Virus record (IMG/VR): IMGVR_UViG_3300030117_008021
Location: 10,772 to 35,044 of that record
Strand: one strand, 5' to 3'
Source: a virus
DNA: 24,273 nt
A program made the position numbers and the translations under genes. Under the pieces are notes generated by a model. It had not been told where the DNA came from and did not search any database. It worked only from the letters and a program-made list of their open reading frames with translations. Of the stretch, positions 2,920 to 18,968 are shown piece after piece (the first letter of the stretch is position 1; every line of letters begins with the position of its first letter).

Positions 2920-3254
2920 TACAAAGACTCCTTGTGGGTTTCAAAAAAATCAATATCTAGTATTCCTTTATCGTCTATATAAATGTCGCCGGCTGGCTTT
3001 CCTAAAAATAGTTGATGATATTTGACTCCCCATTTTTCCAGCTGTCGTATGGTTCCTTTTTCAAACATCTCGTATGCAAAAGCGATAGAGTTGCCGCTTC
3101 TACCCATACCTCTAGCTGTTTGAAAAATTATTGTGTGACCTTCATCATATAATTTATTTACAAAGTTTATGCGCTCTTGTAGCGGCTGCGATAGTGCATA
3201 ATCGCCATCTGTCGTAGTACAAATTGTACCATCAATGTCAAAAACGTAAGTCAC
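2919..3254 (-). CDS. Small HAD-superfamily phosphatase
   Basis: 111 residues with a compact HAD core and no obvious cap. Motif I is FDIDGT (nucleophile D6, acid/base D8), motif II TARG near 46-49, the motif III lysine is in GKPAGD (K86), and motif IV is YIDDKG (D94, D95). All catalytic residues are present, so it is probably an active phosphatase of a small sugar phosphate. It starts with GTG at 3252-3254, overlapping the nucleotidyltransferase stop as GTGA, with GGAG nine bases upstream. Next to an HxGH nucleotidyltransferase and near a PfkB kinase, it could serve the GmhB step (sugar 1,7-bisphosphate to 1-phosphate), but it is shorter than GmhB. Confidence 0.7.
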   Translation of the reverse strand: MTYVFDIDGTICTTTDGDYALSQPLQERINFVNKLYDEGHTIIFQTARGMGRSGNSIAFAYEMFEKGTIRQLEKWGVKYHQLFLGKPAGDIYIDDKGILDIDFFETHKESL

Positions 3255-3643
3255 TTGTCTTTCTCCAGTATATTAGTAGTCGAATACCCACCTATTCTAT
3301 CAAAAAACTTTAATTCTGTGCAATATTCCTCACCTACAACTGTTTTACCTTTCCAATCTGAGCCTATTACCATTATATCAGGCTGTAGTTGTCGTATTTC
3401 TTGCTCTAATCCTTCGCGTGAATTAAAAATAACAACTTCATCAATATATTTTATACATTCTAAAGCAAACTTTCTGTCCTCAGCACAATTATACGGACGT
3501 GAAGGCCCTTTGTCTTTACGTACTTTTTCATCTGAATCTATACCGACAATTAGCTGATCGCCAAAAGATCTAGCATATTTAAACATTTCAAAGTGGCCAC
3601 GATGTAATATATCAAAGCAGCCATTAGTCCAAACAATTTTCAT
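3251..3643 (-). CDS. HxGH nucleotidyltransferase (HldE C-domain/TagD-like)
   Basis: 130 residues from the start I prefer. It resembles the adenylyl/cytidylyltransferase half of HldE (RfaE) and glycerol-3-phosphate cytidylyltransferase. Visible: TNGCFDILHRGH at 6-17 with the HxGH pair H14/H17, IGSDWKG at 93-99, and GYSTTNIL at 119-126, the family's closing nucleotide-binding motif. It would join a sugar or polyol phosphate to ATP or CTP to give an NDP-sugar. An upstream in-frame ATG at 3688 would add 15 residues inside the sulfotransferase-like gene, but ATG 3641-3643 has GGAG six bases upstream and lies just after that gene's TAG, so it is preferred. Confidence 0.75.
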   Translation of the reverse strand: MKIVWTNGCFDILHRGHFEMFKYARSFGDQLIVGIDSDEKVRKDKGPSRPYNCAEDRKFALECIKYIDEVVIFNSREGLEQEIRQLQPDIMVIGSDWKGKTVVGEEYCTELKFFDRIGGYSTTNILEKDK

Positions 3644-3644
3644 G

Positions 3645-4409
3645 CTATCTCCATATTTTGACATCGGGCAGGGCATTGTATTTTTCATATAAAGAGCCGT
3701 ATACGCTCTCTATTTCATTTTTAAACACACTATTTCGCCAATCAGTTTTTCTTAATTTAAAATCATCAAAGTTTAATTCATCAAATCCAAATCCTAAAAA
3801 CTTTCTAAGTTTATCAATATTTTCAGGCTTCGACATAGTTTCATATTTTAATGTAATCATCTTAATGTCTAAATTATTGTTTATGATTCTATCAAAATGG
3901 TGCTCATATTGTAAAAAATCACACCTCAACATTAATTCTTGATAATTGTTTCTTTTAAAATCATTAGGGTCATTTATTATAATACCAGGTCTTGGCGCCG
4001 GTGAGAAAAAAGTATCTGGACCTCTCATATCGATTGCAAAACTGTTGTGACACTTTTCTATAATATTAATTGAAAGAGGTCTTATCAGCTTATCAGCAAT
4101 CTTATAGCCGGGATTTTTGTTTTTTTCATACCCCATTTGTGGCCATCGATTAAAAAACGAAGCGATACTATTGAAAGGATTTGCAATAAGATGAATAAAA
4201 ATATCTGTGTTCTTTAGTTCGTTGTGTTTATACAAAAATTCAACATTTCTATCGTGTGTTGATAAGACATGCATACCTTGTTTCAAAAGTTGTTTTTGAT
4301 ATTCTTTATTGTAATGCGGATCCGAAGGGTGTGGATTAAAACACTCTCTAATTTTCTCATTAAGATATCTGTTGCCTACCCTTGGGTAGCATAGGATCAT
4401 AATCTTCAC
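3645..4409 (-). CDS. Sulfotransferase-like protein
   Basis: 254 residues. The N-terminus (ILCYPRVGNRYLNEKI, 5-20) resembles the PAPS 5'-phosphosulfate loop of sulfotransferases, though the usual PKSGTT-type lysine is absent. HLIANPFNSIASFFNRW near 73-89 resembles the 3'-phosphate-binding strand and helix, and a YETMSKP segment then DKLRKFLGF matches the usual ending (a short YE motif, then a helix and FLG). It may sulfate a glycan using PAPS, but the weak P-loop leaves room for an inactive or related P-loop transferase. The GTG start (4407-4409) overlaps the DUF962 stop as GTGA; an ATG three codons later is an alternative. It sits between the two heptose-like pathway genes. Confidence 0.5.
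   Translation of the reverse strand: MKIMILCYPRVGNRYLNEKIRECFNPHPSDPHYNKEYQKQLLKQGMHVLSTHDRNVEFLYKHNELKNTDIFIHLIANPFNSIASFFNRWPQMGYEKNKNPGYKIADKLIRPLSINIIEKCHNSFAIDMRGPDTFFSPAPRPGIIINDPNDFKRNNYQELMLRCDFLQYEHHFDRIINNNLDIKMITLKYETMSKPENIDKLRKFLGFGFDELNFDDFKLRKTDWRNSVFKNEIESVYGSLYEKYNALPDVKIWR
3649..3652 (-). promoter_or_regulatory. Ribosome binding site fixing the nucleotidyltransferase start
   Basis: On the minus strand this reads GGAG, five bases before the ATG at 3641-3643 (GGAGATAGCATG). It decides for the inner start over the in-frame ATG at 3688, which lies within the neighbouring gene. Confidence 0.6.
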
Positions 4410-4693
4410 TTAAGTTTTCCAGTCAATATATCTTTAAGCATAACCCAATCACATGCCTTTGCCCAAATAGGATTTGTAAATGCAGCAGGCTCATTCTTTT
4501 CAAAAAAATAGTGACCACTCCAAGCAAACGGATATACTACAAATGGTGCCGCTAATAGCGCCCACCAATAGCCAGATATAATTGCAGTTGCAACATAAGC
4601 AATCGTTGCAAATTGTCCAAGCACATGCAGGTATCTGTTTGTCTTGTTTTGATGTAATGTCAAATAGTATTCATAGTATTCTTTAAATGTCAT
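4406..4693 (-). CDS. DUF962 (Mpo1-like) membrane protein
   Basis: 95 residues from the preferred start. It matches the DUF962/Mpo1 pattern closely: an N-terminal YYEYYLTLHQNKTNR, RYLHVLGQ, two membrane segments (about 26-41 and 43-57), then PFAWSGHYFFEKNEPAAF and a DWVMLKDIL end. Conserved histidines H14, H23 and H61 are present. Yeast Mpo1 of this family is an Fe(II) dioxygenase that shortens 2-hydroxy fatty acids by alpha-oxidation; the bacterial and phage members are uncharacterised. Its presence suggests a lipid-linked step, which is inference. A longer frame from 4747 would lie inside the kinase gene; the ATG at 4691-4693 follows AAGGAG at 4706-4711 with a rather long 12-base spacer. Confidence 0.75.
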   Translation of the reverse strand: MTFKEYYEYYLTLHQNKTNRYLHVLGQFATIAYVATAIISGYWWALLAAPFVVYPFAWSGHYFFEKNEPAAFTNPIWAKACDWVMLKDILTGKLK

Positions 4694-5426
4694 TAATCGT
4701 ATTAACTCCTTTTTGTTGTACAACTTTTGTTGCACAATCATTTGCATATTTTATAGCTATAAAAATATCTCTATCGTTTAGATAACTATAGACTAAAGCT
4801 GATAGAAAAGAATCGCCGGCGCCTGTTAAATCTTTGATCTCAACTTTTTCAACAGGAAATATTAAGTTTTTGTAAAGACAACCTTTTTCGCCAGCTGTAA
4901 CTATCAACTTATCTGAAATCCAATCAAAATCTTTGATAGATGTGCGTGTTTTATTATGTTCAACTTCATTAATCTTAATAAAATCGACATCCATAGCCCA
5001 ATCATCAATAATTTTTTTGGTATCTAAAAAAACAAGCGGGTGGCTGGCTGCGATTGTTTCTATATCATGCTCTAGTAGAAATCCTTTGTTATAGTCAGAA
5101 ATGATGACTGCGTTGTAATCTTCAAAATTAATATCGGATATATTTTCAATTCTGTCTACTTTTTGCTCTCCGGTGTCAACACGAACAATCATATGGTTTG
5201 TTTTCTTTTCCACGTATCTTGTTTTTACAATCTCAGCAGAATTAGTAATCAAGTCACATTCAACACCAAAAGACAATACGTTCTCATAAACATTACCCGC
5301 CATGCCTCTGTTAGACTTTCGATGTGTCTCAACAAAAACAGGCACGGGGGCTGCAGGAGCTAGACGATCACAATTTCCATAAATAAATACGTCTTCGCAA
5401 CTATCGCCTATAACAAGGACTTTCAT
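4683..5426 (-). CDS. PfkB-family sugar kinase (HldE N-domain-like)
   Basis: 247 residues, shorter than the about 310-residue HldE kinase domain. The N-terminus has GDSCEDVFIYG then DRLAPAAPVPVF, which is the HldE/RfaE pattern (RxxPEAPVPV), and RGMAGNVYENVLSFG replaces the usual GGAANVA. VKTRYVEKK and IVRVDTGE fit the HldE substrate strand, and LTGAGDSF at 200-207 holds the catalytic base D205. It likely phosphorylates the anomeric position of a sugar phosphate (heptose 7-phosphate in HldE). Together with the separate HxGH nucleotidyltransferase it forms a split HldE. The ATG at 5424-5426 overlaps the PLP-enzyme stop as TGATG with AAGGTG upstream; a GTG one codon earlier is an alternative. Confidence 0.75.
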   Translation of the reverse strand: MKVLVIGDSCEDVFIYGNCDRLAPAAPVPVFVETHRKSNRGMAGNVYENVLSFGVECDLITNSAEIVKTRYVEKKTNHMIVRVDTGEQKVDRIENISDINFEDYNAVIISDYNKGFLLEHDIETIAASHPLVFLDTKKIIDDWAMDVDFIKINEVEHNKTRTSIKDFDWISDKLIVTAGEKGCLYKNLIFPVEKVEIKDLTGAGDSFLSALVYSYLNDRDIFIAIKYANDCATKVVQQKGVNTINDI

Positions 5427-6613
5427 CACTCACCTTTAATTACGCTACAAATATAATCAATATCTTCGTTTGTAAGCTCAGGATAGTTTGGTACAAAAAA
5501 TCCTCGCGAGTGAATAATGTTGCTCATTTCATCGTCAAATTTGCCGTATCTACGCACCCAAAAAGGATGAAGACCTAAGTTACCAGCGCTAAAAATTCTT
5601 GTCTCAATTTTGTTCTCAACCAATCTATTGACAATTTCTGTGCGGTGTTCTTTGCTGGTCGCTAATGCTCCAAAAGAAATAGACACAGGCTTATGATCTC
5701 TCCAATCTTGAAACTGAACATATCCCTCAAGGTTCTGTGCATATCGAACGTGGTTTTCATATCTTCTTTGCGCGACCCACTTAGCCTTTTCCATTTGCCT
5801 AATTCCGATAAATGCCTGTAAGTCTGTAGAACGTAAATTAAATCCAGCAACGAAAAAAGTAAACGGCTTGTGAAAATCATCAATACCGTGTTCCTCAATC
5901 ATACTATTATATGTTTCTTGATCTAGATCCTTTCCCCAACCATGACTGCGGAGCATTAGCATCAAATCGTATAATTCCTTACTATCGGTGTTTACCATGC
6001 CGCCTTCAATTGATGAAAGCTGGTGACCAAAATAAAAAGAAAAACTAGACATGTCACCAAGTGTGCCGACCATAGATCCGTCAGAATACTCGGCGCCAAG
6101 TGCAGCACACGAATCTTCAAGCAAAATAAAACCGTACTTTTCTTTTAAAGCAAGCATCCTTTCTTTATAATGAGGAACTCCTAATACTTGCACAAAAATA
6201 ACTGCGTCTGGACAATCTTCTTCACAAAGTTTTTCAAGCTGATCTAAATCTATACCAAATGTATTTGGATCGGCACCTACCATTACCGGCTCTAAACCAA
6301 ACTGAATTGCTGGAGATAAGGTTGTAACCCACCCTACAGATGGAACAGCAATCTTTTTATTCTCAATATGTCCATTATGCAACGCGGCATAAATCATCAA
6401 AAGATTAGCTGATGAGCCTGAGTTGCAGAATACAGCATACTTGGTACCGATATAATCAGCCCAAAGTTTTTCAAATTGTAGTGTTAGATCGCCCTTAGTT
6501 AGCTTAGGATATGATTTTAACCATTCACTAAGGGCATCAATATCATCATCGCTAATTGTTTCCATAGCAAGCGGATAATTAATATCGTTTGCTCTAAATT
6601 TTTTATATGTCAA
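5426..6613 (-). CDS. DegT/DnrJ-fold PLP enzyme with His for Lys: ColD/RfbH-type sugar 3-dehydratase
   Basis: 395 residues with full DegT/DnrJ/EryC1 architecture: FCNSGSSANLL (PLP phosphate site), LLEDSCAALGAEY (D167 pairing with the PLP ring) and SFSFYFGHQLSSIEGGM. In ordinary sugar aminotransferases the latter motif is SFHxxKxxTxGEGG with the Schiff-base lysine; here that place is H197. This swap defines the 3-dehydratases ColD (GDP-4-keto-6-deoxymannose) and RfbH (CDP-4-keto-6-deoxyglucose), which remove the 3-hydroxyl. The likely product is therefore an NDP-4-keto-3,6-dideoxy sugar. The nucleotide is not determined. Start: TTG at 6611-6613 with GGAG six bases upstream, preferred over a TTG four codons earlier. 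It overlaps the kinase gene as TGATG. Confidence 0.78.
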   Translation of the reverse strand: MTYKKFRANDINYPLAMETISDDDIDALSEWLKSYPKLTKGDLTLQFEKLWADYIGTKYAVFCNSGSSANLLMIYAALHNGHIENKKIAVPSVGWVTTLSPAIQFGLEPVMVGADPNTFGIDLDQLEKLCEEDCPDAVIFVQVLGVPHYKERMLALKEKYGFILLEDSCAALGAEYSDGSMVGTLGDMSSFSFYFGHQLSSIEGGMVNTDSKELYDLMLMLRSHGWGKDLDQETYNSMIEEHGIDDFHKPFTFFVAGFNLRSTDLQAFIGIRQMEKAKWVAQRRYENHVRYAQNLEGYVQFQDWRDHKPVSISFGALATSKEHRTEIVNRLVENKIETRIFSAGNLGLHPFWVRRYGKFDDEMSNIIHSRGFFVPNYPELTNEDIDYICSVIKGE

Positions 6614-6614
6614 T

Positions 6615-8135
6615 TTAATCTCCAAGTAGTTTTCTTTTAAGTTTAATCTTAGTAGAATTTTCTACATTTTCTCTAGCTTTAACGCCAAACTTATCTTCAA
6701 GCAATTTTAAATAAGAAGGGTCAGTATGATATGTCATCCAAGCTTTGTCTCTGAATTCAAGAATTTGTTTTGCTGAAAGATTATCATTTGATAAGTTTAA
6801 TGTTTCATATGAGTGCTGACTATAGCCTACATATGTGTCTGGAAGTTTCCAACCTTTTTTCTTTGCGGTTAGGTGAAGTGGGCTTCCCGGATATGCCATG
6901 GCGCAGTACATATTTGTCATCTCTGTTTTATTTTCTAGTGCAAAATCTAGAGTTGCTTGAAGTGATTCCTCAGTATCCATTGGCAAGCCAAAGATGTAAT
7001 TACCACCAATATTAATGCCAGCGTTTCGCACTTCGTTTATTATATCAAGAATACGAACTTCTTTAAATCCATCTTTATGAATTTCTTTTCTAAGAACTTG
7101 ATCTGGATTTTCAATACCAAGCCCAAGCCAGTTTACACCAGCTTTCTTTAGCGTTTCTAAATACTTTGGCTTGCAAGTATCAATTCTAGAATATGCCCAG
7201 ATATTAAAACCATAATCTCTTTGAATGAGCAACTCGCATATTTTTAAAAAATGCCTTGGATTGAGAACAAAAAGTTCATCAGCAATTTTAATATTCTTAA
7301 CTCCCATATTGGCAATTTCGTCAAATTGTCTAATAATAAACTCAGGCTCCCACCATCTGAAAACATTGCTATCAGCGCTTGCAATATGTGGTGCAGGATT
7401 CACTCTATTGATAATATTAATCATACAAAAAGAACACCTGTATGGACAGCCCAAACTTGTATATAATGCCGCAAAGGGTGTATTTTCGGTGTTGTTCGAC
7501 CAAGAGTGCCAACCAGCAGTTCTATATTTACTAATGTCTGGTAGTAAATCCCAAGCCATCCCTGGCAAGTCTCTTGCCAGGTCTTTCTTTAAAACAATTC
7601 CCGAAGGCTCGTTTAGGACTGGATTACCGTCGACCTTGTAACCTAAACCTTTGACTTTGCTTATTTGTGTTTCGTCGTCTAAATTGTTAATCGATAAAAG
7701 ACTACTGATTGTATAAACACCTTCATTTTGACAAATCATATCAACACTTTTTTCTTGCAAAGTTTCTTTAGGTAACGCTGCTATATGCCCACCAACAAAC
7801 AAAGTTCGGATACTAGGGGAGATGTTTTTTAATTCGTCCGCTAGGCCAATTGCGCCTTCCATGTTTTGAGTAGATGCAGATGGCTGCTGGCCATAAACCA
7901 CAAAGCACGCAACTCTCGGGTTTATATCTTTAATAACTTGTGCTGCTTCAATATAATTTAATCTTTCGGCTTCGCAATCAAGTATTTGAGTGCCGTATCC
8001 ATTAGAACGACAATGCTGTGCTAGCATCGCAGCCCAAATTGGAGGCTCGATGGCAGAATATTCATTACTTAAATCTTGATAAATCTTCTTTGATGCGTTT
8101 GGATGTATAAATAAAACGTCTAATTGTCTATTCAT
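6615..8135 (-). CDS. B12-binding radical SAM enzyme
   Basis: 506 residues. The N-terminal part (about 5-150) looks like a cobalamin-binding domain, with FVGGHIAALPKETL near 113-126. The radical SAM domain carries the 4Fe-4S motif SLGCPYRCSFC with C230, C234 and C237. Downstream are IKIADELF, WAYSRID, GLGIENPD, IGGNYIFGLP and AYPGSP, the usual strand landmarks of the TIM barrel in this class (B12-rSAM/Elp3-like). Members catalyse C- or P-methylations, ring rearrangements and other radical reactions. Placed between a sugar 3-dehydratase and an oxygenase, a sugar C-methylation or radical tailoring step is plausible, but the substrate cannot be read. ATG at 8133-8135 follows AGGAG. Confidence 0.8.
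   Translation of the reverse strand: MNRQLDVLFIHPNASKKIYQDLSNEYSAIEPPIWAAMLAQHCRSNGYGTQILDCEAERLNYIEAAQVIKDINPRVACFVVYGQQPSASTQNMEGAIGLADELKNISPSIRTLFVGGHIAALPKETLQEKSVDMICQNEGVYTISSLLSINNLDDETQISKVKGLGYKVDGNPVLNEPSGIVLKKDLARDLPGMAWDLLPDISKYRTAGWHSWSNNTENTPFAALYTSLGCPYRCSFCMINIINRVNPAPHIASADSNVFRWWEPEFIIRQFDEIANMGVKNIKIADELFVLNPRHFLKICELLIQRDYGFNIWAYSRIDTCKPKYLETLKKAGVNWLGLGIENPDQVLRKEIHKDGFKEVRILDIINEVRNAGINIGGNYIFGLPMDTEESLQATLDFALENKTEMTNMYCAMAYPGSPLHLTAKKKGWKLPDTYVGYSQHSYETLNLSNDNLSAKQILEFRDKAWMTYHTDPSYLKLLEDKFGVKARENVENSTKIKLKRKLLGD
6620..6623 (-). promoter_or_regulatory. Ribosome binding site for a TTG start
   Basis: GGAG on the minus strand, six bases before TTG 6611-6613. No in-frame ATG exists before residue 17 of the PLP enzyme, so this site decides the start of the 3-dehydratase-like gene. 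Confidence 0.5.
7561..7581. repeat. Perfect 9-bp inverted repeat with 3-base loop inside the radical SAM gene
   Basis: CCTGGCAAG, loop TCT, then CTTGCCAGG. Stem arms are 7561-7569 and 7573-7581. It is rich in G and C within an AT-rich gene and encodes the repeated peptide DLARDLPG. On the plus strand it is followed by TCTTTCTTT, but no plus-strand gene needs a terminator there. Confidence 0.75.
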
Positions 8136-9057
8136 TTAAAACTCCTAAGTCTAAAATATGCAAGTTGGTAGGGTGCTTAAAGCCACCTTCGCTGTCAACA
8201 AACTCACCATCTCCGTCTGGAAAGTAAAATAACTTGTTGCTTCCTAAAGTAGATAAAGTTTCTTGGCTTGCTCTTTCATTTTCTCTCCAGTGGTGAATCT
8301 TTTCGGGATCTCTATTGTCGCCAGGACGGCGTAATACAAAAGTAGTATCAATAGAAATTCGACTTTGAGCGCCGGCAAGTCTTGTGCTGGAGTGCAAGCC
8401 TGCAAAGTCTGCTAAAAGTATTGTCCCCTTAGAAGGAACGTAGTCTAACTTGGTGTACTTATCGGCAATATGTTCGCCATCTTTGTATGATGGTAATGCG
8501 CCAAGCCAGCTTTCTTCAAAAGCATCAGGAGGATCATAAAACGCTACATGATTTCTTTCAATATCTCCAAAAATTGGAATATGAACAGTAACACTTTCAC
8601 TAGATTCCCCAGCCCAACTATCAGAATGTATATGTTCCGTAGGGTGATGTCTCAGCATGTTTGCTTGATTTACTGCTCCTTGTTTGTAACGCAGATTTAA
8701 GGGAATGTGCCAAGAGGATATTAAATCATTAATACCAAGTGAATCGATAATCGATGAAAATGCACGCACTAATAAATTATATTCCAAAACGTTATATTTT
8801 TTTGGAACAATCATACCATTAGGGGTGATATTTGAAATATTTTCATATTGCTCATCAAGAGTTTTTAATAAATCGAACTCGTTTTGTATATAACAATCTC
8901 CATTAAAGCCTCTAGAAATATAAAGTGCAGCTGCAGTTTGTAGTTTCTCAAACAAATCAGGCCTGATCTTGTGTGCTACTAAAAGAGATCCCACTCTATG
9001 ATGTTCAAATCTTGACTTAAAAATGTCAAATGCTTCTATTCTGTTTTGTAAACTCAA
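8128..9057 (-). CDS. 2-oxoglutarate/Fe(II) oxygenase-like protein (PhyH-type)
   Basis: 309 residues. The centre shows an HxD facial-triad candidate in EHIHSDSW (H144, D146), then ESVTVHIPIFGD, AFYDPPDA, a GTILLADFAGLHSSTRL segment with the distal H222, and R226 or R233 as possible 2-oxoglutarate ligand. Order and spacing fit the double-stranded beta-helix oxygenases of the phytanoyl-CoA hydroxylase type. It may hydroxylate a sugar or an attached side chain. The start is TTG at 9055-9057, overlapping the E1-beta stop as TTGA, with GGGGA seven bases upstream. No membrane segment. The fold call rests on the triad pattern, so another cupin-like function is possible. Confidence 0.55.
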   Translation of the reverse strand: MSLQNRIEAFDIFKSRFEHHRVGSLLVAHKIRPDLFEKLQTAAALYISRGFNGDCYIQNEFDLLKTLDEQYENISNITPNGMIVPKKYNVLEYNLLVRAFSSIIDSLGINDLISSWHIPLNLRYKQGAVNQANMLRHHPTEHIHSDSWAGESSESVTVHIPIFGDIERNHVAFYDPPDAFEESWLGALPSYKDGEHIADKYTKLDYVPSKGTILLADFAGLHSSTRLAGAQSRISIDTTFVLRRPGDNRDPEKIHHWRENERASQETLSTLGSNKLFYFPDGDGEFVDSEGGFKHPTNLHILDLGVLNE

Positions 9058-9968
9058 TTGTAAATCCCCATAATATGTAAAACTCTTTGTGTAATTTCGG
9101 CTGCCGATGGTGGCAAGTTATCCACTTCCTTGGCAAAGCCGGCCGATTTGTTTTCTAGTCCCATAGTCCATACTGGCTTATGAGTTCCAAGCATGATATC
9201 GTGCGCAATACTTTTTGCTACGCCGTTAACATAATCATCATCCAATACTATCGCACCTTTCTTAGAATTTAAAACTTCTTGGCGCCATTTATCTCTAAGA
9301 TTAAAAGGCTTTATCCACCTCAAATGGATAATACTTGCTTTAACTCCTCTTTCGGCCAGCATTTTTTGTGCTTTGACAGCCTCAAATCTTGTTATAGAAA
9401 TAGGAAACAAAACTACGTCTGGATTTTGATGCAGAATATCCGGCATCTCATCGGTATTTAAATAGCTTCCTCTGTGTTCTGAAACATATAAAACATCATC
9501 ATTATTCATAAAATGATCGTATGCGTGTTGGTATTCTGCAGGGGTCATAGGTGAAACAATTTTAAGGCCTGGCATCCTGTAGTAAAGAGAATGGTGTGAC
9601 GAACCTGCGACTGGTCCTATTGAGCCTTCCATGCCAATTCCTCGCACCATTAAGGGGCACGGTATCTTCCATATTTCTTTTGATTTAGCAGCATAATTTA
9701 CTACGCTAGGACAATTATACCAGTTAAACCCTTGATACCGTATAACATACATCGGTCTTCTTCCGGCTAACGCAGAACCAACAACAATACCGCCACCTGC
9801 CACATCAGCCATAGAAAGCTCAACCATTCCGTCTTCTTCATATAACTCTGGTAATGTTCCACCTACCCAGCCAACTGCAGTTAAGCACTGACCAAAAGCA
9901 AGGCCATTATGCTCTGTTAAATGCTTGTGGGTAATATCTTTTATTGTATCTCTAACTGTTTTTGCCAT
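9054..9968 (-). CDS. Thiamine-diphosphate enzyme, E1-beta-like subunit (transketolase Pyr and C-terminal domains)
   Basis: 304 residues, close to the usual size of E1 beta subunits of 2-oxoacid dehydrogenases. MVELSMADVAGGG near 48-60 corresponds to the PISEAG segment of the family; the essential glutamate that activates thiamine appears to be D55. SALAGRRPMYVIR, VRGIGMEGSIGPVAGSSHHS and MPGLKIVSPMTPAEY are standard E1-beta landmarks, and the C-terminal domain (about 180-304) has HLRWIKPFN and a VLDDDYVNGV strand. It overlaps the E1-alpha gene by 28 bases, so the two are surely co-translated. No E2, E3 or lipoyl domain lies in the window, so it is unlikely to be part of a classic dehydrogenase complex. 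Acyl transfer to a keto sugar is inferred. Confidence 0.8.
   Translation of the reverse strand: MAKTVRDTIKDITHKHLTEHNGLAFGQCLTAVGWVGGTLPELYEEDGMVELSMADVAGGGIVVGSALAGRRPMYVIRYQGFNWYNCPSVVNYAAKSKEIWKIPCPLMVRGIGMEGSIGPVAGSSHHSLYYRMPGLKIVSPMTPAEYQHAYDHFMNNDDVLYVSEHRGSYLNTDEMPDILHQNPDVVLFPISITRFEAVKAQKMLAERGVKASIIHLRWIKPFNLRDKWRQEVLNSKKGAIVLDDDYVNGVAKSIAHDIMLGTHKPVWTMGLENKSAGFAKEVDNLPPSAAEITQRVLHIMGIYN
9065..9069 (-). promoter_or_regulatory. Ribosome binding site for the oxygenase TTG start
   Basis: GGGGA on the minus strand, seven bases before TTG 9055-9057. The next in-frame methionine is about 80 residues in, past conserved-looking sequence, so the TTG is taken as the start. Confidence 0.5.
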
Positions 9969-10789
9969 GTTCCTTCAACTTCTTTTCTTATCTTTTCGTT
10001 AATTTCTATTGCCTCGTCACCCAGAGTTTCCATTTCATATTTGAATCTATCGAAAATATCTGGATTATCACAGCCGGCGCCTGCGTGCCAATAAAGTCTG
10101 TGTGTCTTAATATTCAATAATCTTGGTGCTTCAATTAGACCATCACAGTGATTAGCGATTTCCATCGGATCATCGTCAATACTATATGCTTCCATTTGAA
10201 ATGCTCTTGCAACATCATCCATTTCCCAATTTCTTCTAACTTTTTTTTCTGTAAGAATAGACAGGTTGTTGTCTTCCACAACAAAAAGAATAGGTAAATT
10301 TTTAGTCGATGCCCAGCCCATGGCGCCTAGAACGTAGTCTTCTTCGGCAGATGCATCGCCCATAACTGTTATAGTGGGCTTTCTATTAGAATAACAAGAA
10401 CCTACTGCGATAGGTACTTGGCTTCCCATTAAACCATCGTGGCCAAACATGTTGATTTCAGGACAATGAATACTAGCAGAACCGCCCATGCCGTATGCAC
10501 AACCAGTTTTTCTTCCAAGCAGTTCGTCGATAAGTTTAGCCATATCTCCACCAAAACATAAGTACCAAGAGTGCGCCCTATGTTGTGCGAACAGATACGG
10601 ATCTATATTAGACACAACTTCTGATATGGTGGCCGGCGTATATTCTTGACCTGCAGACATATAGGTTGGAAACTTAATTGTTTTATCTTTAATATTTTGA
10701 TAAACACAATTTTCAAAATTTCTACACAAGGAAGCTTTTTTAAAAACGTCAAGTCTAAATTGTCTCTCGTCTAAAATAACTGCCTCCAA
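9941..10789 (-). CDS. Thiamine-diphosphate enzyme, E1-alpha-like subunit
   Basis: 282 residues, a little shorter than usual E1 alpha (320-360). HRAHSWYLCFGGDMAKLIDELLGRKTG near 70-96 and YGMGGSASIH match the family, and the ThDP/Mg motif runs from GDAS at 144-147 to EDNN at 172-175. It should bind the diphosphate of thiamine and partner the E1-beta-like protein. AviB1/AviB2 of avilamycin and the aldgamycin pair, which attach two-carbon branches to keto sugars, are the closest functional precedent I know for an E1 pair in sugar biosynthesis. The start is uncertain: TTG 10787-10789 lacks a clear ribosome site, while GGAGG at 10783-10787 lies five bases before an ATT codon at 10775-10777. The first ATG, at residue 44, is too late. 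Confidence 0.8.
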   Translation of the reverse strand: MEAVILDERQFRLDVFKKASLCRNFENCVYQNIKDKTIKFPTYMSAGQEYTPATISEVVSNIDPYLFAQHRAHSWYLCFGGDMAKLIDELLGRKTGCAYGMGGSASIHCPEINMFGHDGLMGSQVPIAVGSCYSNRKPTITVMGDASAEEDYVLGAMGWASTKNLPILFVVEDNNLSILTEKKVRRNWEMDDVARAFQMEAYSIDDDPMEIANHCDGLIEAPRLLNIKTHRLYWHAGAGCDNPDIFDRFKYEMETLGDEAIEINEKIRKEVEGTWQKQLEIQ

Positions 10790-11259
10790 TCTGCAAAGCT
10801 TTTTCTATCAACTACAACAACATTATCAAGTTTAAGCGCCGGTACTATGTGATGTTCTGCATCATCGAAGAATACACACTCTCCAAACTTTTCTAAATGT
10901 TCTTCTTTTTTAACTGTTTTGTATTCTAAAAGCTTGTGAGAATTAAAATGATCGTAAATGCCAAGCATTTTCATAAGAATAATAGAGGGTTGCTTTTCAT
11001 AATCAACATCTAATAAAGCACCTGCGGATAAAAATCCAATTTGCTTTTGTTGACTTGATAGGTGTTCAAGCATCTCTCTTACACCTAAGTGCAAATATGC
11101 AGTTGCACCATTACGATCTCTAATCGTATCATCATCAACATTTATAAATGGCGGCTCCATGTTTTTCAACCAAATTAAATCACCATATTCAGTTTCGCTA
11201 GTAATCAAAGTGCGATCAATATCAAAAATATATAAGTCTTTATTTTCAAGGACACCCAT
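10771..11259 (-). CDS. HAD-superfamily phosphatase-like protein
   Basis: 162 residues from the preferred start. Motif I is FDIDRTL (D13, D15), motif II FLSAG near 76-80, the lysine is in YKTVKK (K114 or neighbour), and motif IV is FFDDAEHH (D132, D133). The small size and motif spacing recall the magnesium-dependent phosphatase-1/FkbH-N group of HAD proteins. Substrate unknown; a sugar phosphate is likely from context. ATG 11257-11259 has AAGGGA upstream and is preferred over an in-frame start 10 codons earlier (11289), which would lie deeper in the cupin gene. It overlaps the double-cupin gene by 14 bases and E1 alpha by 19. Confidence 0.65.
   Translation of the reverse strand: MGVLENKDLYIFDIDRTLITSETEYGDLIWLKNMEPPFINVDDDTIRDRNGATAYLHLGVREMLEHLSSQQKQIGFLSAGALLDVDYEKQPSIILMKMLGIYDHFNSHKLLEYKTVKKEEHLEKFGECVFFDDAEHHIVPALKLDNVVVVDRKSFADWRQLF
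10783..10787 (-). promoter_or_regulatory. Strong GGAGG ribosome site just inside the E1-alpha frame
   Basis: GGAGG on the minus strand, lying within the first codons if TTG 10787-10789 is used and five bases before an in-frame ATT at 10775-10777. It suggests initiation at the rare codon ATT, giving 278 residues; otherwise it is a chance match in the end of the HAD gene (codons for DWRQLF). Confidence 0.35.
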
Positions 11260-11938
11260 ATCCCGTTCCCTTTGTGTTTTCTGCTGCAATAGAAAGCAGC
11301 ACTATTTCATCTGTAATTTCAAAAACCCTTGCTAGTCTATTAAGGGTCGAGCCATCTAATACATCTCCCGGCTGAGCAATATAACTGTCGCCGCTAATAA
11401 GACCTCCGCGAAGAAACACAAATATATCATTTGCGGGCCTGTTGTATAGCTTCTGCTTGTCTAAAATACTTTCCGCATGCATCGTACAATCACAAAAATT
11501 ATATATATTACAGCCTCCTTTTTCAGGGTCTGTAACCCATAAACAGTCTTTAGATTTTATTTGTTCTTTGTTTTTGCCTTCATACGGTGATAGTTTTCTT
11601 CCATAGGAATCTTCAAGCCTCACTAGATCTTTTTTATCTTTAGGAGTTTCAATTTCAAATATGTGGGCGCCCTCGTCAGAAAGACCCATAGTGGAATGAA
11701 ACAGCCCTCGCCTAATCATGACTTTTTTAAGCGAAGACATTTTAATACTGTTGTTTAAAAAAGATGTTTCGGCGCTGCCCTTTAAGAGAACTAATCCGGT
11801 GTTCTTTTTTGGATGACAGTGCATCGAGGTTTTTTGACCCTTGTCAATATGCAAATACCATAAGCCAACATGCTCGTTTTCATAAACAAGATATTCATGA
11901 CCCCAAGGCTTGTTAACCACAACATCTGCATAGGACAT
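11246..11938 (-). CDS. Double-cupin protein (mannose-6-phosphate isomerase type II-like)
   Basis: 230 residues. The first domain starts VNKPWGHEYLVYENEHVG, the PWGxE entry of type II mannose-6-phosphate isomerase and related cupins, with TSMHCHPKK (H40, H42) as metal ligands, and GLVLLKGSAE; the usual motif-1 glutamate is not evident. The second domain (about 150-225) has NDIFVFLRGG and QPGDVLDGS, which is weaker. The pairing with a HAD phosphatase suggests sugar-phosphate handling, but it may be a binding or regulatory protein. Two bases separate it from the DJ-1-like gene. Confidence 0.6.
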   Translation of the reverse strand: MSYADVVVNKPWGHEYLVYENEHVGLWYLHIDKGQKTSMHCHPKKNTGLVLLKGSAETSFLNNSIKMSSLKKVMIRRGLFHSTMGLSDEGAHIFEIETPKDKKDLVRLEDSYGRKLSPYEGKNKEQIKSKDCLWVTDPEKGGCNIYNFCDCTMHAESILDKQKLYNRPANDIFVFLRGGLISGDSYIAQPGDVLDGSTLNRLARVFEITDEIVLLSIAAENTKGTGYGCP

Positions 11939-11940
11939 GT

Positions 11941-12477
11941 TTACTTTCTCTGATTGTATACGTCAATAGCAGACTTCATCCATTCGCCCATCCACTTATA
12001 ATGAGGAGATGAGACCAAATTGTCATCAACAACAGCGGGCTCATCAACATAAATGGCGCCGGCATTATTAATATCATCCTTAATGCTATAATATCCAGAA
12101 ACCTTACGACCATTTACAACTTTAGATGAAATTAATAGTTGTGCGCCGTGGCATGTGCTGGCGATAACTTTTCTTTTATTGTTCCAATCATTAATAAAAT
12201 GTAAAACTTTTTCTTCTTGACGAAGCTTTTCAAGTGCTTTTACGCCACCAGGAACAACCATAATATCATAATCACTAATAAGTTGATTATATCTATCGTG
12301 ATTATTCAACTCAGATACCAATAGGGTGCTTTCCATATTTGTTCCCATAATACCGTGGATTCTACCGAGAGCGTTAGACATAATATCAACTTCAAATCCC
12401 TCTTCTAGAAGCCTGTAATACGGATAAATTACTTCGTGGTCTTGGAACTTCTCCCAAGTTACAATTAATGCCTTCAT
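11941..12477 (-). CDS. DJ-1/PfpI-family protein
   Basis: 178 residues, typical for single-domain DJ-1/PfpI proteins. MKALIVTWEKFQDHEV holds the conserved glutamate near position 15, VVPGGVKALEKL is the second landmark, and VIASTCHGAQLL carries the nucleophile-elbow cysteine C109 with H110 after it. HYKWMGEW near the C-terminus gives another candidate histidine. The family includes chaperones, glyoxalase III-type and deglycase-like enzymes and amidases, so the reaction is open; a role in handling reactive keto-sugars is speculative. AAGGAG lies five bases before the ATG at 12475-12477. Confidence 0.75.
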   Translation of the reverse strand: MKALIVTWEKFQDHEVIYPYYRLLEEGFEVDIMSNALGRIHGIMGTNMESTLLVSELNNHDRYNQLISDYDIMVVPGGVKALEKLRQEEKVLHFINDWNNKRKVIASTCHGAQLLISSKVVNGRKVSGYYSIKDDINNAGAIYVDEPAVVDDNLVSSPHYKWMGEWMKSAIDVYNQRK

Positions 12478-13860: not shown

Positions 13861-14808
13861 CTATAACCTCTTTTTATCACTTGAATTCAAATACCAATCA
13901 ATAGTTTTCTTAAGGCCTTCTCTTAAAGATGTGCTTGGCACATAGCCCATATGCTTTTTAAATCTTTCCATACAATAAAATCTTCTAGCTTGACCATCAG
14001 GCCGGTCTGTGTTCCAGATAATCTCTCCTTTATAGTCAATTAACTCAACAATAGTTTCAACTAATTCTTTTATAGAAGTTTCAACACCTGTTCCAAGGTT
14101 CAAAGGACCAGATGCTTCAAACTTTTCAGCTACATCAAGAATAGCCTGAGCTGTGTCTTCTACATATAAAAACTCTCTGGTAGCTTTTCCTGTTCCCCAA
14201 ACTTCTACGGCTGGAATTTTTTCTTGTTTAGCGTGCAAAAACTTTCTAATAAGGGCCGGCACAACATGGCTTTTTTCTAAATCAAAATTATCATTAGGGC
14301 CATAAAGATTTGCTGGCAGTAAAATGGATGAGTCAAAGCCGTATTGTGCTCTATATGTCCACGATTGAATTATTAACATTTTTTTGCCCATAGAATAGCC
14401 CATAGACTCTTCTTGAGGTAACCCATTCCAAAAATCATTTTCAGTATATGGCACACTTAAATCAAGAGGATATCCGCACCCGGCTGCAAGAGCTACAACT
14501 TTTTTAACTTTATAGCGGCGAGCATAATCCATAACAAGAGTGCCCATCATTATGTTATCATAAAAAAATGTACCGGGTTCTGACTTGTTGGCGGCAATTC
14601 CTCCAACTTTACCTGCTAGGTGAATAACCACTTCAGGTCGCAAATGTTTGAACATTAAATCAACCTGATGTTCTACGGTAAGATTATAATCATACTTTGA
14701 GGGTGCATGCACTACCGCATCTAATTCTTTAAGCATTTTTACAACATGCGTACCAACAAAACCGTGGCCACCTGTAACTAAAACAATTTTATCTTTCCAA
14801 AATGTCAT
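13861..14808 (-). CDS. fcl: GDP-L-fucose synthase-like SDR (Fcl/WcaG family)
   Basis: 315 residues, the usual size for GDP-4-keto-6-deoxymannose 3,5-epimerase/4-reductase. GGHGFVG at 13-19, HLAGKVGGIAANKSEPGTFFYDN at 63-85, ENDFWNG at 123-129 and YSMGKK (Y138, K142) are family signatures, with SILLPANLYGPNDNFD. Where the Fcl of E. coli has SSC (Ser107, Cys109), this protein has AGC: C111 is kept and the serine is not. ColC, the colitose enzyme, is a close homologue, so the product could be GDP-L-fucose or GDP-L-colitose; the ColD-like gene makes the latter worth testing. Gmd, which would supply the substrate, is not in the window. Confidence 0.75.
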   Translation of the reverse strand: MTFWKDKIVLVTGGHGFVGTHVVKMLKELDAVVHAPSKYDYNLTVEHQVDLMFKHLRPEVVIHLAGKVGGIAANKSEPGTFFYDNIMMGTLVMDYARRYKVKKVVALAAGCGYPLDLSVPYTENDFWNGLPQEESMGYSMGKKMLIIQSWTYRAQYGFDSSILLPANLYGPNDNFDLEKSHVVPALIRKFLHAKQEKIPAVEVWGTGKATREFLYVEDTAQAILDVAEKFEASGPLNLGTGVETSIKELVETIVELIDYKGEIIWNTDRPDGQARRFYCMERFKKHMGYVPSTSLREGLKKTIDWYLNSSDKKRL

Positions 14809-14817
14809 ATCTTAATC

Positions 14818-15747
14818 CTAATAGTTTGCATACCAAGGCGATTCAATAATGCTATATGCTTTTATGAGTTGACGAATTCCATCGTCTAAATCATACTTGC
14901 ACTTAAATCCTTTGTCGTAGAACTTTTGGCTACTTACAATATAATCGCGCGTGTCGGGATCTGTGGTAAATTCTGCCTTGATAATCTCAAGCGGAAGGTG
15001 TTCTTTAATTTTTTGTGCTAATTGTAACTTATTCATGTTAATCGCATCGTTTCCAACATTATAAGTTTCGTTCTTGCACTCTTCCCAGTTGTCGATTACG
15101 AACATAAATGCGCGACAAACATCTTGTAAATGCACATAGTTGCGCATAAACTCACATTCATAAAGAACAAGAACCTTTTCACGAAGCGCCTTAAGAACAA
15201 AATTATTAACTAATAAATCTGTTCGCATACGAGAGCCAGGACCAAATACCGTAGCCAATCTAAATGTTACATGATTTTCAACATTCTTGTACTCGTCTTC
15301 TGCGGCAACTTTTGTTTGTCCGTAGAGTGACACAGGATTTAAAGGAGAATCTTCTGTGCAGACCGAGCCGTCTACACTCACACCGTATCCAGAGTTAGTG
15401 CACGGATAAATTACTTTTTGCTCTGGTGTTTTATTTTTTGCAATCCAAGCATTTACTCCATGGTTTATTTCAACAGCACCTCTCTTGTCTTTTTCACACA
15501 AAGGAAAACCAACAAGCGCAGCCAAAGGAATAATAATATCAGCCTTTGGTACTTCTTTTTGTAAAATTTCTAAATTGACAATATCCCCTTTAATAAAATT
15601 AAAATTTTCATCAATTGTATATCTCAATAAAGATGTTTCATCATACATTAAATTATCTATTACTGTGACGCTATGGCCAGCGCGCAGCAAATGATCGGTA
15701 AGTTCGCTGCCAATATAGCCAGCGCCTCCTGTTATTAAAATATTCAT
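14818..15747 (-). CDS. NAD(P)-dependent NDP-sugar epimerase/dehydratase/reductase (extended SDR)
   Basis: 309 residues. GGAGYIG at 7-13 binds the dinucleotide; LAALVGFPLCEKD at 75-87, the CTNSGYG strand at 116-122 (T117/S119 as hydroxyl candidates) and YGQTK (Y142, K146) form the active site. TFRLATVFGPGSRMRTDLL and FMRNYVHLQDV are typical of a common group of extended SDRs in LPS clusters that act on 4-keto or 4-hydroxy NDP-sugars. The exact reaction cannot be set. Its ATG overlaps the stop of the GME-like gene as ATGA, and the Fcl-like gene begins 9 bases after its stop. Confidence 0.75.
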   Translation of the reverse strand: MNILITGGAGYIGSELTDHLLRAGHSVTVIDNLMYDETSLLRYTIDENFNFIKGDIVNLEILQKEVPKADIIIPLAALVGFPLCEKDKRGAVEINHGVNAWIAKNKTPEQKVIYPCTNSGYGVSVDGSVCTEDSPLNPVSLYGQTKVAAEDEYKNVENHVTFRLATVFGPGSRMRTDLLVNNFVLKALREKVLVLYECEFMRNYVHLQDVCRAFMFVIDNWEECKNETYNVGNDAINMNKLQLAQKIKEHLPLEIIKAEFTTDPDTRDYIVSSQKFYDKGFKCKYDLDDGIRQLIKAYSIIESPWYANY

Positions 15748-17629: not shown

Positions 17630-18357
17630 TATTTATTCCTTAAAACAATTACTGGCTGATAAGGAGATTCTCTGGTTGTATTGTAGTTGTTGGTAAATGA
17701 CTCTTTAGCGAAACCATATTTAGCAACAGGTTCCCACCCCTCTATTAACAAAGGAAATCTTTTTTCTCCGTATACTCTGTGGACATTAAAGCAAACTTTG
17801 TCGCGACCTACAGGAACAGCCAAATACATTAATCCATCTTTTTTTAATAAATTTTTCATGTTCTGCATTGCCTCAAGATCTCCATTTGGATTAAGAGGAT
17901 CACCATATCTACCTAATCCATCATGTTCATAAGAAGAAATTGATAAACAAGCGTCAAACAAAATATCTTTTTCATTTCCAGGCTTTATATATTCAATATT
18001 AGGATGAAAGCTTTCTCTATCGGAATATTCGATAACGGTGCATTTTTCAGCACCAAATACAATTGCCATGGCTTCATACCATGGATAAGCAGAACCAGCA
18101 ATACAAATATGCTTTCCTTTAATAGGATGAGTGCTTAACGCATCGTATAGCCATAAGTCTGTATGATGATAATAATTTACCTCTCTTTTGTTAATTCTTT
18201 CTACACATTTGTCAAACTCTTCTTGCGTAAAATTTGCATTTATCATATCTTGAATTTCATCACTACAATCATTACGATAGTGGTACAGTACTGAAACCTT
18301 ACCATTCATTGAGTATGCGTCATAAAGTTCTCCTGGAATTCCTTCGGGCGCTTTCAT
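17629..18357 (-). CDS. DUF268 protein (methyltransferase-like fold)
   Basis: 242 residues. KGKHICIAGSAYPWYEAMAI (80-99) then VIEYSD is the DUF268 signature and resembles the SAM-binding strands of Rossmann methyltransferases. ISSYEHDGLGRYGDPLNPNGDLEAM (140-164), LAVPVGRD and FNVHRVYG are the rest of the family pattern. The family is uncharacterised as far as I know; the fold suggests a sugar O-methyltransferase, which is inference. It overlaps the short DegT gene as ATGA and the GT11 gene as TAATG. Confidence 0.72.
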   Translation of the reverse strand: MKAPEGIPGELYDAYSMNGKVSVLYHYRNDCSDEIQDMINANFTQEEFDKCVERINKREVNYYHHTDLWLYDALSTHPIKGKHICIAGSAYPWYEAMAIVFGAEKCTVIEYSDRESFHPNIEYIKPGNEKDILFDACLSISSYEHDGLGRYGDPLNPNGDLEAMQNMKNLLKKDGLMYLAVPVGRDKVCFNVHRVYGEKRFPLLIEGWEPVAKYGFAKESFTNNYNTTRESPYQPVIVLRNK

Positions 18358-18968
18358 TTTATTATCTCCACATCTTTAAACAAATCAAATTCTCTTAAAT
18401 CTCTATAAAAAGGTTCTTCTGGTAAGTCTTCCATGTGTTCTGGATAGTTTTGCATAAGCATCAAGCCTCTGGCTGCTTGTTCAGGGCTCATATAAGCATT
18501 CCAACCATTAATTTCAATATTATCTTCGTGATACATTACCTCACCTCGACCTTCGTAGCGACCTTTTCTAAACCACTTAGCAGCCTTTTCATCGTCAGTT
18601 AAAATCATACCCCCCTTACCTATCTTCAAATGTTTTTTGATGTGAAAGGAAAGGCACATAAAGCTTCCTGGGATATACATATTGCTTGTTAGACGCTTGG
18701 CTGCGTCATAAATTGGGTAGGGCTCAAGTTGATAGATGCCTTTCCATCTATAATCGCGAAACTTAAGTGTGCCGCCAGCATGCAAAATTGATTGTGGAAC
18801 TGATAGATATGTTCTCGCTGGAATGATCACCTCTTGAACGTTAAGATATTCGCAACATAATAGCAAAGCATCTGTACAATTATCTGTTGAAACTGCGTAC
18901 TTTGAGCCGCAATAATCAGCTACGGTTTCTTCAAACATCTTTACAATTTTATATGGGTTATGTCTCAT
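18354..18968 (-). CDS. Shortened DegT/DnrJ-type PLP protein
   Basis: 204 residues, about half of a normal DegT/DnrJ sugar aminotransferase (370-400). The PLP core is there: AVSTDNCTDALLL near 25-37, YPIYDAAKRLTS with D88 for the pyridine nitrogen, and SFHIKKHLKIGKGGM with the Schiff-base lysine at K112. The C-terminal small domain is almost gone. It ends cleanly at an ATGA overlap with the DUF268 gene, so it looks like a compact gene and not a frameshift. Unlike the PLP enzyme at 5426-6613 it keeps the lysine, so aminotransfer is possible, but activity without the small domain is doubtful. Confidence 0.65.
   Translation of the reverse strand: MRHNPYKIVKMFEETVADYCGSKYAVSTDNCTDALLLCCEYLNVQEVIIPARTYLSVPQSILHAGGTLKFRDYRWKGIYQLEPYPIYDAAKRLTSNMYIPGSFMCLSFHIKKHLKIGKGGMILTDDEKAAKWFRKGRYEGRGEVMYHEDNIEINGWNAYMSPEQAARGLMLMQNYPEHMEDLPEEPFYRDLREFDLFKDVEIIK

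Follow-up and report, generated by a model that had tools for sequence, protein, structure and literature searches.

The window analysed here, a stretch of 24,273 nucleotides, corresponds to bases 10772–35044 of the 69,109-base virus record IMGVR_UViG_3300030117_008021 and is filled by sugar and glycosyltransferase genes that follow one another in a long series on the minus strand. It contains a cassette of five genes (5426–10789) that encode a ColD-type sugar 3-dehydratase, a B12-binding radical SAM enzyme, a predicted oxygenase, and the beta and alpha subunits of an E1-like thiamine diphosphate (ThDP) enzyme, all five lying where the original prediction had placed them. These genes, the codons discussed below, and the partner genes whose coordinates follow are all on the minus strand. 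The reading frames of the five genes and of the next gene on each side overlap by 4–28 nucleotides, and the gene order of the cassette is kept in sister phages and is therefore not due to chance. Judged by its gene content, the source record is a tailed phage, because it carries baseplate wedge, PhoH-like, and thymidine kinase proteins together with a weak late-sigma-factor match, and these same matches rule out a chance bacterial contig.

The first gene of interest (5426–6625) encodes a pyridoxal/pyridoxamine phosphate (PLP/PMP) protein of 399 amino acids that matches Pfam DegT_DnrJ_EryC1 at 230 bits and has ColD (2gms) as its best match in the PDB, with 177 bits over 383 residues. Its His201 (codon CAC, 6023–6025) aligns with the active-site His of ColD in that structure, at the position occupied by Lys in aminotransferases; the replacement of the Schiff-base Lys by His had thus been recognized correctly in the original prediction, although the residue is H201 in the 399-residue frame and not H197. 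RfbH (CDP-6-deoxyglucose-3-dehydrase, also called E1) and SpnQ hold a [2Fe-2S] cysteine motif, whereas enzymes of the ColD type are devoid of it (PMC8987622). The four-Cys motif of the RfbH type was not found in the window protein, which is Cys-free between residues 174 and 392, and it is missing in 91 of the 93 His-type DegT proteins of an alignment comprising the window protein, one reference, and proteins from E1 loci. A tree built from 37 DegT proteins has a branch (support 91/89) with the His types on one side, and it groups the window protein together with the PDB ColD in a His clade of 13 rows (97/96); the comparison with aminotransferases that had been proposed earlier therefore places it with ColD and other His-type dehydratases and not with the Lys type. 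Because of His201, the lack of iron–sulfur cysteines, and the clade shared with ColD, the protein is best called a ColD-type sugar 3-dehydratase. It is, however, distant in sequence from ColD itself, a GDP-4-keto-6-deoxymannose 3-dehydratase, and its product would apparently be branched instead of being reduced to colitose. In ColD chemistry, the C4 ketone remains (PMC8987622).

The E1-beta-like subunit (9054–9968; 304 amino acids) matches Pfam Transket_pyr and Transketolase_C, and the E1-alpha-like subunit (9941–10789; 282 amino acids) matches E1_dh at 61 bits, all above the Pfam cut-offs, whereas the scores to pyruvate dehydrogenase models of NCBIfam are far below theirs (104 bits to PDH_E1_alph_y, with a cut-off of 394). 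The ThDP/Mg motif of the alpha chain, G144-D145-A146 (10352–10360), has its Gly and Asp invariant in 129/129 sequences, as are Asn174 and the loop histidines His73 and His235. In the beta chain, Asp55 (codon GAT, 9804–9806) replaces the ThDP-activating Glu, with Asp in 127/127 beta chains of the family and Glu in 15/15 other E1-beta or transketolase chains; we know of no characterized E1 with this substitution. Sequence scans with the pair found it on 75 viral and 41 bacterial contigs, the bacterial carriers including Pelagibacteraceae, SAR116, Thiothrix, Betaproteobacteria, Magnetospirillum, and candidate-phyla bacteria. The scan of genome contigs succeeded with the E1-beta alignment, whereas a peptide search of the same contigs with the single E1-alpha sequence found nothing. 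The contig sets used here and below overlap or contain repeats, with 54 distinct E1-beta sequences among 74 viral ones and 45 distinct PanB sequences among 79.

The E1-beta family is a single long-branched clade (98/95) that is separate both from the true dehydrogenases with E2 neighbours, the comparison on which the original prediction had been staked, and from a second clade of E1 proteins from glycan clusters, which stood in for AviB1/AviB2. The pair had also been described as lacking a lipoyl domain, and this is borne out by the 27 virus records with the pair (that of the window and 26 others, which may be fragments), none of which contains one. Moreover, several bacterial carriers possess separate, ordinary E1 genes elsewhere, some with an E2 gene close behind. 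In three candidate-phyla loci (L049:9020-10903, L050:9014-10909, and L055:6689-8584), E1-alpha and E1-beta are fused into proteins of 627–631 amino acids, which fits a single functional unit. Other arrangements were also observed. Some of the glycan clusters that hold the Asp-type pair also contain a second, more classical E1 pair with Glu present (L141, L038:13944-16242, and L052:3817-5825), and miniature E1-like pairs (about 200 and 180 amino acids) adjoin the full pair in L092:11981-13122, L045:10926-12069, L086:3363-4582, and L126:4182-5356; the beta chains of the miniature pairs in L092 and L086 keep the Glu, and these proteins may represent a further type of small split ThDP enzyme.

The strongest evidence on the function of the pair comes from a natural exchange. 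In a sister phage (L014), the ColD-type and radical SAM proteins are 82% and 75% identical to those of the window and the flanks are the same, but the genes for the DJ-1, cupin, and HAD proteins, E1-alpha, E1-beta, and the oxygenase are absent and are replaced by those for a PanB-like protein, which exceeds the cut-off of TIGR00222 with 282 bits, and a ThDP protein of 610 residues. This YerE-like ThDP protein has 8rph as its best PDB match (292 bits), which is JanthE, a YerE-like enzyme that joins 2-oxo acids to ketones (PMC12188165). The set of PanB and YerE-like genes is found on seven phage contigs (L014 and six others) with the same radical SAM gene, five of which show a ColD-type protein 70–82% identical to that of the window; an intact E1-beta gene is found on none of the seven, and a YerE-like relative occurs in only 2 of 36 E1 contigs, at 33–35% identity. 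On the ColD tree, the type of ThDP partner switches three times, at least two of the switches being forced by supported branches. Directly after the YerE-like gene of one contig, L169:9910-10125 contains an N-terminal piece of ColD and a C-terminal (3′ end) piece of E1-beta, which can be read as a recombination scar of the exchange of ThDP enzymes. This natural swap strongly supports a carboligase role for the E1 pair.

A wider scan for PanB yielded 80 viral contigs (L213–L292), in 79 of which a YerE-like gene adjoins PanB; His-type DegT proteins occur in 72 of the 80 and the Lys type in none, and the E1 pair of the window's family was found in 0/80. Three E1-alpha matches in PanB loci were rejected as members of the family, since they are mini proteins of 208–226 residues. 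In L217 (8132-15042), the DegT protein is of the true RfbH type (334 bits vs. 183 for ColD) and JanthE is clearly the nearest match of the ThDP enzyme (428 bits vs. 268 for the best acetolactate synthase). Phages thus carry both the combination of ColD with E1 and the classical one of RfbH with YerE. The widespread PanB/YerE cassettes, with a His-type RfbH- or ColD-like dehydratase and in some cases a 4,6-dehydratase, look like the classical logic of yersiniose and erwiniose in phages.

The E1 pair is also linked to His-type DegT genes. Among the DegT proteins with 250 or more residues that are encoded near E1-beta in the loci covered, 92 are of the His type and 2 of the Lys type. As a control, in 12 bacterial genomes with the pair, the DegT genes within 15 kb of E1 comprise 8 His and 0 Lys types, whereas those farther away comprise 3 His and 13 Lys types (Fisher p = 0.0002). 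The linkage spans several His-type DegT clades, and one phage group has the order E1-alpha, E1-beta, His-type DegT, two short-chain dehydrogenase/reductase (SDR) genes, and a gmd-like gene. Moreover, the second, separate E1 clade also lies beside His-type DegT genes, on plasmids of Azospirillum ramasamyi and Solidesulfovibrio magneticus.

Several other genes accompany the cassette. The B12-binding radical SAM enzyme (6615–8135; 506 amino acids; Pfam Radical_SAM and B12-binding) has a CxxxCxxC motif at residues 230–237; its nearest NCBIfam model is HpnJ (130 bits, below cut-off) and its best PDB match is AprD4 (62 bits), an enzyme acting on sugars. The predicted Fe(II)/2-oxoglutarate (2OG) oxygenase (8128–9057; 309 amino acids) carries the HxD...H facial triad and the 2OG-binding Arg that mark such enzymes (H144-x-D146, H222, and R233, invariant in 29 homologues). 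In a Foldseek search its AlphaFold model (pLDDT, the predicted local distance difference test score, 89) matches PtlH, EvdO1, AviO1, and KanJ at TM-scores of about 0.4, low values that resolve the superfamily only, with PhyH-type enzymes, EvdO1 and AviO1 among them, being nearest. Both the radical SAM enzyme and the oxygenase could tailor the sugar. The E1 module further includes an HAD-family phosphatase (10771–11289; Pfam Acid_PPase, 30 bits), encoded ahead of E1-alpha in many relatives, and two constant partners, a cupin protein (11246–11938), encoded within 8 kb of E1-beta in 70/75 viral and 32/41 bacterial loci, and a DJ-1/PfpI protein (11941–12477; Pfam DJ-1_PfpI, 128 bits), encoded near E1-beta in 72/75 and 28/41, respectively. 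The sdr2 gene (14818–15747; Pfam Epimerase, 109 bits), coding for an NAD-dependent epimerase/reductase-like protein that is a candidate for a late-step reductase, is near E1 in 39/75 viral loci and in 7/7 YerE-type contigs of the kind with window-like ColD and radical SAM genes.

A candidate source of the 4-keto-6-deoxy substrate is the nucleoside diphosphate (NDP)-glucose 4,6-dehydratase encoded at 1591–2550, which has a TDEVYG motif and scores 289 bits to the NCBIfam dTDP-glucose 4,6-dehydratase model, below the cut-off of 365. All 4,6-dehydratase profiles score below their cut-offs, the dTDP type being best for the window gene and gmd in several relatives; gmd-like neighbours occur in several relatives, no Gmd gene was identified in the record of the window, and the GDP-L-fucose-synthase-like protein encoded at 13861–14808 scores 261 bits to Fcl, below its cut-off of 500.

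Taken together, we consider it probable that the product of the cassette is a 4-C-branched 3,6-dideoxyhexose, linked to a nucleotide and destined for a surface glycan. The pathway would start with an NDP-4-keto-6-deoxyhexose, formed by a 4,6-dehydratase of phage or host origin; from this sugar, the ColD-type enzyme would take off the 3-hydroxyl and leave the C4 ketone free. The E1 pair would then bind ThDP and accept an acyl unit, the donor being a 2-oxo acid (by analogy, pyruvate); since the pair lacks a lipoyl acceptor, it would add this unit to the C4 ketone to give a tertiary alcohol, as YerE does. Finally, the sdr2 reductase, the B12 radical SAM enzyme, and the Fe/2OG oxygenase would finish the branch or the ring. 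The E1 pair is most simply a carboligase acting on the same acceptor as the YerE-like enzyme, because it has no lipoyl partner and is swapped with that enzyme beside the same ColD. The two best-known routes to an acyl branch on such a ketone run through ThDP enzymes of the YerE and E1 types (PMC12247030, PMC4753412), with precedents in aldgamycin and kibdelomycin for E1-type pairs and in yersiniose for YerE (PMC12247030). Association, homology, and displacement therefore lend good support to the pathway put forward by the original prediction: the ColD-type 3-dehydratase and the carboligase role stand, the latter owing to the clade, the missing lipoyl domain, and the YerE swap, while pyruvate as the donor and a two-carbon branch at C4 are more conjectural. 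We infer from sequence, linkage, and displacement all of the activities, the donor, the chemistry and position of the branch, the nucleotide, the order of the late steps, and the use in a surface glycan.

Some observations weigh against this interpretation. The replacement of Glu by Asp in E1-beta could change or weaken the chemistry, and the constant presence of the DJ-1 and cupin partners is not explained by a simple pyruvate donor. A DegT neighbour lies within 8 kb in only 24 of the 41 bacterial loci, some of which have their flanks cut short, and some Pelagibacter loci hold only DJ-1, cupin, E1, and SDR genes; the pair may therefore have a role with other 4-keto sugars as well.

Among the alternatives, the one that survives best, although it is unlikely, is that the pair has this keto sugar as its acceptor but uses a transketolase-type or other donor, such as a ketose or a special 2-oxo acid prepared through the DJ-1, cupin, and HAD proteins, so that the branch would not be acetyl. 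The DJ-1 and cupin genes travel with E1 and are missing from the seven YerE-type contigs, where PanB is found instead. ErwE prefers hydroxylated 2-oxo acids (PMC12247030), and PanB could supply an acid of that kind to the YerE type; analogously, E1 may receive another donor through the DJ-1, cupin, and HAD genes. Transketolases have also been proposed for sugar branching in amipurimycin and miharamycin (PMC12247030). In a fold search with a model of the fused E1 they are the best matches; such a ranking is, however, expected, since the E1 enzymes in the PDB are split chains and its single-chain entries are only transketolases, so that this search does not separate the two families, whereas sequence profiles favour E1 over transketolase.

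Slightly less likely again is the presence of two separate sugars, in which ColD would lead to a plain 3,6-dideoxy sugar (e.g., colitose) and the E1 pair would belong to another pathway of the same glycan island. The bacterial loci with an E1 pair and no nearby DegT gene, as well as the several other sugar genes of the window, would fit this arrangement. Nevertheless, His-type DegT genes are specifically enriched near E1, the same ColD and radical SAM genes remain after the swap of YerE for E1, and both the second E1 clade and the YerE/PanB pairs are likewise linked to His-type DegT. A role of the pair in feeding host central metabolism, as an additional 2-oxo acid dehydrogenase copy, to which the weak matches of pyruvate dehydrogenase E1 models would point, is highly improbable and already disfavoured, given the separate clade, the lack of a lipoyl domain, the Asp in place of Glu, the constant location beside sugar genes, and the bacterial carriers' own ordinary E1 genes elsewhere.

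With respect to known systems, the preferred carboligase shares with the actinobacterial E1-type pairs of antibiotic clusters (of the AviB1/AviB2 and KbDH kind) the two-chain E1 architecture, the ThDP motif, the absence of E2/E3, and the location in a deoxy-sugar cluster making a keto sugar; the reaction proposed for these pairs is the attachment of a C2 unit to a keto sugar (PMC12247030, PMC4753412). The clade of the window differs from them in the Asp in place of the catalytic Glu, in its links to a ColD-type 3-dehydratase, DJ-1, and cupin, and in its occurrence in phages and Gram-negative or candidate-phyla bacteria. The YerE-like enzymes (YerE, ErwE, and JanthE, for yersiniose and erwiniose) would perform the same reaction on a 4-keto-3,6-dideoxy sugar, and a JanthE-like enzyme occupies the same place in sister phages, but they are single-chain proteins of the acetolactate-synthase type, whereas the window encodes a two-chain E1. 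Pyruvate dehydrogenase E1 has in common with the pair the fold family and the ThDP motif, but not the features noted above (no E2/E3 or lipoyl domain, Asp for Glu, and separate clade).

The surroundings of the cassette include further conserved genes. A PfkB/HldE-kinase-like sugar kinase (4683–5429, minus strand; Pfam PfkB; 113 bits to NCBIfam rfaE_dom_I) adjoins the ColD gene, and an HldE-like nucleotidyltransferase (120 bits to NCBIfam rfaE_dom_II) is encoded at 3251–3688 on the same strand; these two split functions are conserved beside the cassette and possibly provide a sugar activation route of their own. A small Mpo1-like protein (4406–4747; PF06127, 107 bits) within the sugar cluster is conserved in sister phages. 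A second DegT protein (18354–18968), which adjoins a DUF268 protein, is short (204 amino acids), has the aminotransferase Lys, and is apparently reduced.

E1-type sugar branching in actinobacterial antibiotics and YerE-type branching in O-antigens are already known, whereas no description of either type in phages was found in the literature searched. A search of 50,697 phage records returned only weak E1 matches, below 28% identity and none of them close, in agreement with the earlier remark that no phage had been described with this set of genes. As far as checked, three features are new: the clade with Asp, its association with ColD, and the swap. A bolder proposal, which we advance tentatively, is that branched 3,6-dideoxy sugars arise, both in phages and in uncultured bacteria, through a previously undescribed clade of Asp-type split ThDP carboligases that use a donor provided by the DJ-1, cupin, and HAD partners, and that this module is exchanged in phages with YerE/PanB cassettes, changing the branch while the sugar core is kept.

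The swap makes the function directly testable, since both ThDP enzymes should share an acceptor. If the interpretation is true, chiral tertiary alcohols could be made with ThDP enzymes of a new clade whose active site is unusual. Branched-chain sugars were previously known from a few O-antigens and antibiotics, and apparent pathways for them are now found on many phage contigs in two exchangeable forms; if the interpretation holds, phages could use rare branched sugars to assemble surface glycans or to alter existing ones, and a change of receptors or a decoration of the virion would be a plausible purpose.

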